This document shows positions 2,762 through 4,711 of a stretch of DNA of 64,000 nucleotides, piece after piece (within the stretch, counting starts at the first letter, position 1; each line of letters begins with the position of its first letter). Both the position numbers and the translations under genes were made by a program. Location: positions 1 to 64,000 of the forward strand of contig NZ_JAMXLY010000003.1 of the NCBI RefSeq assembly GCF_024054555.1. The letters are read 5' to 3'. The stretch is from Segatella cerevisiae. GTDB lineage: Bacteria > Bacteroidota > Bacteroidia > Bacteroidales > Bacteroidaceae. Below the pieces are notes generated by a model. The model had not been told where the DNA came from. It did not search any database and saw nothing but the letters and a program-made list of their open reading frames with translations.

Positions 2762-3127
2762 CACATGTTTTTTAAATACGTAACTTTTTACTTTAAAAAA
2801 GTGCTAAAATAATCATCTTTATCGGAAAGATTTCGCTTTGTTCAGGGCAAAAGGCTGGAAATAATAAAAGAGGTAACTTCCTGAAGGCTCGTTCAGAAAC
2901 CTGTTGAAGACTTCGCAATACTGTTTTTAAGTTGTAAGGCCAAATATACCTTTAACCCAATCGTGCATGAAGGTCAAGTGTGTGTCCCCCTAGGTTTCCA
3001 TAGGCAGTGAGACGCCTGATGGGCATTTCAAGTCCTGCACTTCTCTACCTATTCTATCCTTTTAGGGATGACTTGGGGAAACTCTGATACCTAGTCTTAA
3101 TCATTTATATTAAGTTTTATAAAATTT
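2762..3127. other. gene-free stretch with possible structured RNA
   Basis: No coding sequence is supported. Part of it can fold: CTAGGTTTCC (2990-2999) can pair with GGAAA (3077-3081) plus CCTAG (3090-3094), leaving an 8-base bulge, and CAAGTC (3029-3034) can pair with GACTTG (3070-3075). An AT-rich hairpin (CTTAAT 3096-3101 with ATTAAG 3109-3114, then TTTTAT) could be a weak terminator on the plus strand. A minus-strand TATATTTG (2941-2948) could be a distal glsA promoter. I could not match it to a known RNA family. Confidence 0.3.
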
Positions 3128-3170
3128 GTGGTGGAAAGTGGAGGATTGTGGGGAAAATTATGTAACTTTG
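3128..3170 (+). promoter_or_regulatory. dcw promoter with putative MraZ operator
   Basis: Three GTGG repeats start at 3128, 3138 and 3148, spaced exactly 10 bases apart. They are followed by a -7 box TAACTTTG at 3163-3170, 28 bases before mraZ. MraZ is known to autoregulate by binding short G-rich direct repeats of about this spacing upstream of mraZ (TGGGN with 5-base spacers in E. coli, AAAGTG-type repeats in mycoplasmas). AAAGTGG is present at 3135-3141. The repeats cover the place where the -33 element should be, so repression by occlusion is plausible. The operator role is inferred. Confidence 0.65.
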
Positions 3171-3198: not shown

Positions 3199-3744
3199 AT
3201 GAGGTTTTTAGGTCATCTTGAAGCAAAGACCGACAAGAAAGGACGGGTCTTTCTGCCTGCCGTTTTTCGTAGAGAAATGCAGACAGCAGGAGAGGAACGT
3301 CTGGTATTGCGCAAGGATATCTTTCAGCCTTGTCTGGTGCTCTACCCTGAATCAGTGTGGAACAATCAGTTGGATGCACTTCGCAGCAAACTTAACCGCT
3401 GGAACAAAAAGCACCAACAGATTTTCCGGATGTTTGTTTCTGATGTCGAACTCATCACTCTTGACGGAAACGGAAGATTCCTCATTCCCAAACGCTATCT
3501 GAAAATGGCAAACATTCAGGAGGAGGTACGCTTTATCGGTATGGATGATACCATTGAGATCTGGTGCCATTCTAAAGAGGATTCTCCATTCATGGACACC
3601 GGGGAATTTGTCAAAGACTTGCAGGACATTATGTCCACAGACACTTCTCATGAAGAAAACATGGGAAATGGGACAAAGATAGATGAAGAAGGAGAACCGT
3701 CTGCTCTCCCACAGAATAAGGATGACCAGCCCCTTTCAAAATAG
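3199..3744 (+). CDS. mraZ: MraZ transcriptional regulator
   Basis: 181 residues. First gene of the division/cell-wall cluster; in other bacteria MraZ is a ring-forming DNA-binding regulator of this operon. Two SpoVT/AbrB-like half-domains are visible, each with its signature: DKKGRVFLP at residues 12-20 and LDGNGRFLIP at 88-97. It carries about 30 extra C-terminal residues, rich in Asp, Glu and Lys, compared with the usual length of about 150. The start ATG follows AAAGAGG, a usable ribosome-binding site. GTGG repeats upstream of the promoter suggest autoregulation. rsmH follows after 28 bases. Confidence 0.95.
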   Translation: MRFLGHLEAKTDKKGRVFLPAVFRREMQTAGEERLVLRKDIFQPCLVLYPESVWNNQLDALRSKLNRWNKKHQQIFRMFVSDVELITLDGNGRFLIPKRYLKMANIQEEVRFIGMDDTIEIWCHSKEDSPFMDTGEFVKDLQDIMSTDTSHEENMGNGTKIDEEGEPSALPQNKDDQPLSK

Positions 3745-3772: not shown

Positions 3773-4711
3773 ATGCAAGAATCAACTCCGTATCATATAC
3801 CTGTCCTTCTGGAAGAAAGCGTAGATGGTCTCAATATCCATAGAGACGGTATCTATGTGGATGCCACCTTCGGCGGCGGCGGCCATAGTAGAAAGATACT
3901 CTCAAAGCTTGAAGGCAAGGGACATCTCTATAGCTTTGATCAGGATGAGGATGCTGAAGCCAATATCCACGGAGACTGCACTGTCGACGGGGACAAAGAA
4001 ACCGAACATTTCACCTTCATCCACTCGAATTTTAGATACTTGAAGAACTGGATGCGCTACTATCATGTAGAGGCCATTGACGGACTTTTAGCTGATCTGG
4101 GTGTCTCCAGTCACCTTTTCGACGATCAAAGCAGAGGTTTTTCCTTCCGCTTCAACGGGCCTTTGGACATGAGAATGAATACGAAGTCGGAGACGACTGC
4201 CGCAGACATCATCAATAATTATGATGAGGAACGGTTGTCGGATGTTCTCTACCTCTATGGAGAACTGAAGAATGCGCGCCGGATCGCCTCCGTTCTGGTC
4301 AAGGCTCGTGCACAGAAACGAATTGTCACGACCCAAGACTTGCTCGACAAAGTAGAGCCGCTCTTTAAAAAAGACCGAGAAAAGAAAGACATGGCAAAAC
4401 TCTTCCAGGCTCTTCGGATAGAAGTCAACCACGAGATGGCAGCCTTGACTGAACTGTTGCTCTCTGCCGAAAAACTACTCCGGCCCGGAGGGCGGTTGGT
4501 GGTCATCACCTACCAGTCTCTCGAAGACCGGATCGTCAAAGACATTATGAAATCCGGCAATATCAAAGGTAAAATTACTTCTGATTTCTACGGACAGATC
4601 AATACGCCCTTCAAACTGATAAACAATAAAGTGATCACTCCAGACAAAGAGGAACTGGAAAGAAACCCCAGAAGCCGAAGTGCAAAACTCAGAATTGCAG
4701 AAAAGAAATGA
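3773..4711 (+). CDS. rsmH: 16S rRNA (cytosine1402-N4)-methyltransferase RsmH
   Basis: 312 residues, the normal length. Methylates N4 of C1402 in the ribosomal P site, using S-adenosylmethionine. The family signature HIPVLLEE opens the protein and the SAM-binding loop FGGGGHS lies at about 33-39. LADLGVSSHLFD (near 105) and the RPGGRL/TYQSLEDR block near the C-terminal third are also typical. Its stop overlaps the ftsL start by four bases (ATGA), indicating translational coupling. Its place after mraZ is the standard dcw order. Confidence 0.97.
   Translation: MQESTPYHIPVLLEESVDGLNIHRDGIYVDATFGGGGHSRKILSKLEGKGHLYSFDQDEDAEANIHGDCTVDGDKETEHFTFIHSNFRYLKNWMRYYHVEAIDGLLADLGVSSHLFDDQSRGFSFRFNGPLDMRMNTKSETTAADIINNYDEERLSDVLYLYGELKNARRIASVLVKARAQKRIVTTQDLLDKVEPLFKKDREKKDMAKLFQALRIEVNHEMAALTELLLSAEKLLRPGGRLVVITYQSLEDRIVKDIMKSGNIKGKITSDFYGQINTPFKLINNKVITPDKEELERNPRSRSAKLRIAEKK

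Follow-up and report, generated by a model that had tools for sequence, protein, structure and literature searches.

Three GTGG boxes that follow one another at a 10-bp step in the mraZ promoter of Segatella cerevisiae are, judging from sequence comparison, very probably an operator read by MraZ. The original prediction had proposed such an operator, and this reading is supported by conservation of the array before mraZ in relatives, by its match to the site of E. coli, and by its absence from most genomes that lack mraZ. Of these, the co-loss seen when genomes with and without mraZ are compared is the strongest new evidence. The kind of operator is already known, from E. coli, Mollicutes and Burkholderia. 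The window, i.e. the whole stretch of DNA analysed, comprises 64,000 nucleotides (contig NZ_JAMXLY010000003.1, positions 1 to 64,000).

The array and its genomic context

The array lies in the promoter region directly 5' of mraZ and the dcw cluster, and the features of this region are as follows:

3121..3127, plus strand: A/T-only lead-in AAAATTT (window letters; logo of 48 rows)
3128..3131, plus strand: candidate MraZ box 1, GTGG, in the unit TTTGTGGTGG at 3125-3134 (window letters; genome-wide pattern counts)
3138..3141, plus strand: candidate MraZ box 2, GTGG, in the unit AAAGTGGAGG at 3135-3144 (same basis as box 1; match to the Mollicutes box)
3148..3151, plus strand: candidate MraZ box 3, GTGG, in the unit ATTGTGGGGA at 3145-3154 (window letters; genome-wide pattern counts)
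3163..3170, plus strand: presumed Bacteroidales-type -7 promoter element TAACTTTG (window letters; spacing from box 3 to TA in the genus)
3199..3744, plus strand: mraZ, 181 aa (PF02381 twice; NCBIfam NF001483, 255.8 bits against a cut-off of 239)
3773..4711, plus strand: rsmH (mraW), the next gene of the dcw cluster (TIGR00006, 313.3 bits against a cut-off of 154.3)

Read on the plus strand, the order is AAAATTT GTGG TGGAAA GTGG AGGATT GTGG GGAAAATTATG TAACTTTG, and then the ATG at 3199. The boxes begin at 3128, 3138 and 3148, one helical turn (10 bp) apart as had been described, and they repeat directly in tandem, with the GTG(G) core and the 10-bp step of MraZ boxes. An extra GTGG at 3131-3134 is out of phase with the array. 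The array had been placed immediately before TAACTTTG, which holds with 11 bases separating the end of box 3 from the TA; from the array end at 3151 to the ATG of mraZ there are 47 bp. The motif TAnnTTTG is what we take to be the -7 element of the Bacteroidales type.

The protein encoded by mraZ has two MraZ domains, each with the DxxxR loop that goes with membership of the family (DKKGR at residue 12 and DGNGR at residue 89). Among 125 complete MraZ proteins scanned, that of the window included, the first loop is found in 124 and the second in all 125. An AlphaFold2 monomer model (mean pLDDT 86.4) retrieves five MraZ entries at Z of about 18 in a structure search, and the first non-MraZ entry follows at 4.4; by this model the protein has the MraZ fold. 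The matches include two M. genitalium structures, which according to their PDB titles are cryo-EM structures of MraZ with its own promoter (9r4j; Z 18.3, rmsd 2.0, 138 aligned) and with a 4-box promoter (9sz7; Z 17.9, rmsd 1.9, 137 aligned). Identity to M. genitalium MraZ is 22%. The C-terminal 35 residues (3637-3744) are polar and modelled with low confidence, and the length of this tail varies among relatives.

Divergent from mraZ, across a gap of 470 bp, lie glsB and glsA on the minus strand (817-1812 and 1901-2728), which match NCBIfam NF053696 and NF053697 above cut-off and form a pair for glycine-lipid synthesis. Their -7 element could be TACTTTTG, at 2753-2760 of the minus strand. Between 2700 and 3300, a sigma-70 scan found two promoter-like sites against 1.3 expected, and two terminator-like sites against 0.4 expected. 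A structured RNA in the same interval was considered and rejected, the three weak Rfam matches all falling under their gathering scores. The fold of 2975-3105 is no better than that of shuffled sequences (z -0.03), and no second copy of 2940-3110 was found in the genome.

Across the 3,288,379 bases of the genome, the exact pattern GTGG-N6-GTGG-N6-GTGG is present once, at the window site, and the same pattern read backward, used as a control, does not occur. When the pattern is tightened to GTGGNGNNNN-GTGGNGNNNN-GTGGNG, which adds the conserved G at the sixth base, and no more than two mismatches are allowed, the window site is again the sole match in the genome, and the backward control gives one. 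The looser triple, also with up to two mismatches, has three sites inside the window against 3.4 expected; being at chance level there, it leaves the exact form alone as telling. Exact triples occur somewhere in the genome in 144 of 296 phylum-sample genomes and 47 of 60 genus genomes, but the backward control also matches many and triples are found away from mraZ, so these genome-wide counts were set aside as evidence. GTGG arrays of 10-bp step are numerous in six genomes (G051, G049, G024, G284, G228 and G172), mostly away from mraZ where their places are listed.

Distribution of the array before mraZ

Genomes in which MraZ was found number 54 of 60 in the genus, 63 of 91 in the family, 65 of 80 in the order and 280 of 296 in the phylum sample. 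Of four close relatives named by a contig scan, three carry the label Prevotella, among them the closest, and one Phocaeicola. Regions of up to 200 bp 5' of the mraZ start codon were scored in 295 relatives (52 genus, 61 family, 62 order and 120 phylum). The 54 genus genomes with MraZ include the window's own; one of the other 53 (L152) was dropped as no start was found. The 63 family genomes likewise include its own, and three others of the window's genus; L178, with 31 bp upstream, was dropped. The order sample of 65 includes its own and G289, which is counted under the family, and L327 was dropped (38 bp). For the phylum the best 125 of the 280 by profile score were taken, chosen by MraZ score and not by operator, less three near-copies (G159, G222 and G254) and two loci where no start was found (L224 and L261).

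The exact triple at period 10 precedes mraZ in 114 of the 295 regions: 36/52 in the genus, 16/61 in the family, 22/62 in the order and 40/120 in the phylum sample (drawn from the best 125 of 280). No exact triple turned up in the 295 regions when other periods (6-9 and 11-16), five dinucleotide shuffles or the reverse strand were scored. When mismatches are allowed, 182 of the 295 regions match in at least 11 of 12 bases and 243 in at least 10 of 12, the latter comprising 48/52 genus, 54/61 family, 47/62 order and 94/120 phylum regions. Controls at the 10-of-12 level gave 0-2 in shuffles and, on the reverse strand, 0 in the genus, 3 in the family, 2 in the order and 0 in the phylum sample; other periods also score at this level, reaching at most 13/120 (period 15, phylum sample). 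Two exact tandem GTGG boxes 10 bp apart are present in 239 of the 295 regions (49/52 genus, 57/61 family, 44/62 order and 89/120 phylum). In this two-box count period 20 scores as well, necessarily so with three boxes, and in the genus periods 7 and 13 reach 10/52 and 11/52 owing to GTGGTGG-like units.

Loss of the repeats before mraZ in relatives had been named as grounds for giving up the proposal; in the genus, family, order and phylum samples they are retained, if unevenly at the level of the phylum. At 10 of 12, for example, the array is found in 27/27 regions of group f23, 4/13 of f16 and 0/4 of f13. Group f23 lies outside the window's class, and its array is nearly invariant, with the consensus ATTGTGGgGTGAaGTGGGAGAtaGTGGGgac and an exact triple in 25/27; at six of its loci (L079-L082, L086 and L088) GGTACATT precedes the array.

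A logo of 48 rows (genus sample, the window's own and named rows) shows GTGG, flanking A/T tracts and TAnCTTTG prominently; A reaches 0.96 at -6, and A or T prevails between -7 and -1. The base two after GTGG is G in 96-98% of these rows. This base differs by lineage, being G in the window's family and A in the six regions of group f5, and such lineage dependence may mark a changed specificity of MraZ.

Loss of the boxes with mraZ

Genomes counted here as lacking MraZ are those without a Pfam match, and the assemblies are partly drafts. There were 65 such genomes; 60 were searched for rsmH, five incomplete ones being left out (G021, G369, G381, G453 and G502), and 54 had it. With G487 (a fragment) left out and L368 dropped (2 bp upstream), 52 regions remained, in which the 230 bp before the rsmH match were scored. 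In none of the 52 did a profile search at E 0.05 find an MraZ remnant on the same strand up to 1,500 bases upstream.

Before rsmH in these mraZ-less genomes, the triple is exact in 0/52, matches at least 11 of 12 bases in 1/52 and at least 10 of 12 in 3/52, as against 114, 182 and 243 of 295 where mraZ is present. Two tandem boxes are found in 1/52 without mraZ versus 239/295 with it. The boxes thus go with the presence of MraZ, as expected of its operator, with a single exception, G424. Here mraZ is gone and an array matching 11 of 12 bases (two GTGG and a GTGT) starts 139 bp before the rsmH match, with the -7 element at 116 bp (L367). A close sister genome, G405 (L127), still has mraZ, and a very recent deletion of mraZ in G424 is possible and would be the simplest reading.

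A phylogenetic tree of rsmH with 89 rows from the window's family requires 14 changes of mraZ state on the best tree, of which at least three are forced by well-supported branches. Boxes are present in 58 of its 60 rows with mraZ, the two without exact tandem boxes being L012 and L029, and in 1 of 29 rows without mraZ. A sign test on the supported branches has just three pairs, with significance out of reach, so independence of the mraZ losses is suggested rather than proven. In group f24, MraZ gives no match in any of the nine sampled genomes (G086, G118, G145, G160, G164, G172, G195, G203 and G291), all of which have rsmH, and two tandem boxes before rsmH are found in none of them.

Six mraZ-less genomes of the genus (G011, G038, G042, G045, G052 and G358) keep TGTAnCTTTG before rsmH with decayed boxes. 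When the array is anchored on this motif they score 5 to 10 of 12, compared with 11 or 12 in 44 of 52 regions with mraZ and 8 to 10 in the other eight. Three of the six (G038, G042 and G045) carry exact triples elsewhere than before rsmH. Since the boxes are lost with mraZ while TAnnTTTG stays, the array looks like a site that is read by MraZ, and not like a part of the core promoter or a G-quadruplex.

Promoter geometry

Box 3 and the TA of the -7 element are 15 bases apart in the window, as they are in 41 of 48 genus arrays; in five the distance is 16. It had been claimed that the promoter has no -33 element and that the array covers this region, and the genus bears this out: TTTG 18-22 bases before the TA is found in 0/52 promoters, and even TTG in this range in 0/52. 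Promoters without mraZ have no TTTG at a spacer of 18-22 either (0/20), and TTG in 3/20, each at spacer 22. With TTTG missing with and without mraZ alike, the lack of a -33 element is nothing for which MraZ has to compensate. Among the wider mraZ-bearing promoters TTG is present in the -33 region in 8/38 of the family, 1/11 of the order and 4/12 of the phylum, and TAnnTTTG itself follows the array in just 12 of 94 phylum arrays.

Comparison with known MraZ sites

In E. coli K-12, too, an exact triple GTGG-N6-GTGG-N6-GTGG, GTGGGAAATTGTGGGGCAAAGTGG, precedes mraZ where the dcw cluster starts; its end is 20 bp before mraZ, as compared with 47 bp in the window. An E. coli MraZ operator was reportedly described by Eraso and colleagues in 2014. 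The two sites differ in placement, the E. coli array being reported downstream of the -10 box in PMC7761207 and that of the window lying upstream of the -7 element.

In Mollicutes the MraZ box is a directly repeated AAAGTG[T/G] (Fisunov et al. 2016, cited in PMC8475190), and box 2 of the window, read as AAAGTGG, fits this letter for letter. In M. genitalium the MraZ box is found solely before mraZ, according to PMC8475190, a single genomic site as in the window. Mollicutes are another phylum with another promoter type, and the site in the window is one predicted from sequence comparison. For Burkholderia cenocepacia, PMC7761207 describes that MraZ shifts a 250-bp fragment holding four 7-nt repeats with 3-nt spacers, found by way of their GTG motif, which it also gives as conserved across B. 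subtilis, E. coli and mycoplasmas. Seven plus three nucleotides give the same 10-bp step as in the window, but there are four repeats instead of three, and they cover the start site, downstream of the -10 box (as stated in that paper), whereas the window array is upstream of the -7 element. The window array ends at 3151 and its -7 element is at 3163-3170; we treat the downstream placement as a property of the E. coli and Burkholderia promoters, not as a defining one of MraZ operators.

Among the matches listed from the open-licence literature we found no description of an MraZ operator in Bacteroidales, which is weak evidence of absence. Nor, within the same scope, did we find such an operator described as occurring throughout Bacteroidota, as being lost along with mraZ or as placed upstream of the -7 element, or any binding or expression measurements from this species or other Bacteroidales.

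Mode of action and alternative explanations

In the mechanism that we propose, the MraZ ring would contact one face of the DNA and read a GTGG in each of three consecutive helical turns; the 4-box promoter complex named in the title of 9sz7 fits such an arrangement. Box 2 would lie at the place of a -33 element and box 3 in the spacer, and bound MraZ would keep RNA polymerase off the promoter, thereby reducing transcription of mraZ itself and of the downstream dcw genes. Repression is probably the main outcome, and is favoured, not proven, by the absence of the -33 element also where mraZ is lacking. The boxes being upstream of the -7 element, unlike in E. coli and Burkholderia, the outcome known there cannot simply be transferred. 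An alternative, which we judge unlikely, is that MraZ bound to the array activates the promoter: its ring would stand in for the missing -33 element, at whose place it lies, and recruit RNA polymerase. It would fit the position of the array over the -33 region and the lack of TTTG or TTG there in the genus, the TTG at spacer 22 in three promoters without mraZ could be a partly regained -33 element, and an activating role of MraZ in a mycoplasma other than M. genitalium is cited in PMC7761207. On the other hand, mraZ-less genomes of the genus keep the -7 element, and promoters without mraZ have no TTTG at spacer 18-22 (0/20), such that the promoter seems to survive without MraZ or a full new -33 element. 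Published data lean the same way: in an M. genitalium mraZ mutant, mraW, MG_223 and ftsZ are up (log2 3.02, 2.08 and 2.34; PMC8475190), and the effect of E. coli MraZ is told as repression in PMC7761207. We also regard as speculative, and as improbable, the idea that MraZ in Bacteroidales and in E. coli act on opposite sides of their promoters, the Bacteroidales array taking the place of the -33 element and a -33-less promoter being either opened by MraZ (activation) or switched between off and on by its occupancy; if true, the same regulator and operator would follow different logic across phyla, through an operator moved relative to its promoter.

Explanations that do without MraZ fare much worse, and G-quadruplex, core-promoter element and chance were all rejected on co-loss with mraZ, absence of the strict quadruplex motif and conservation of the 10-bp period. 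A G-quadruplex formed by the G-rich repeats and regulating the promoter has been proposed for S. aureus mraZ, with similar motifs in other bacteria (PMC11796246), and a loose motif of four GG runs does exist in the window and in 29/44 genus arrays. This loose motif is found in only 8/64 phylum, 5/36 family and 6/38 order arrays, the strict motif (four runs of at least three G with short loops) in 0/182 arrays and not in the window, and what is kept is GTGG at a 10-bp step, in company with mraZ; we hold this explanation to be very improbable. Use of the repeats by the polymerase itself, as an unusual -33 box or an upstream element, could account for the tight distance of 15-16 bases to TAnnTTTG in 46/48 genus arrays. 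It is, however, scarcely credible given that the boxes decay in mraZ-less genomes of the genus that keep TAnnTTTG, that the array also precedes mraZ in E. coli and in the many phylum regions without TAnnTTTG, and that the exact triple occurs once in the genome. As to chance, a lone copy in 3.3 Mb is not impossible and the two-mismatch form is at chance numbers in the window, but with a strict 10-bp period and an exact triple in more than a third of the regions and in none of the shuffles, its probability is negligible.

Implications

As an operator of MraZ, the array would mark a predicted point of control over cell division and wall synthesis in the phylum Bacteroidota. The lineages that lost mraZ amount to a natural experiment that separates operator from promoter. 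The moved placement of an otherwise identical operator raises the question of how one regulator may serve quite different promoters.
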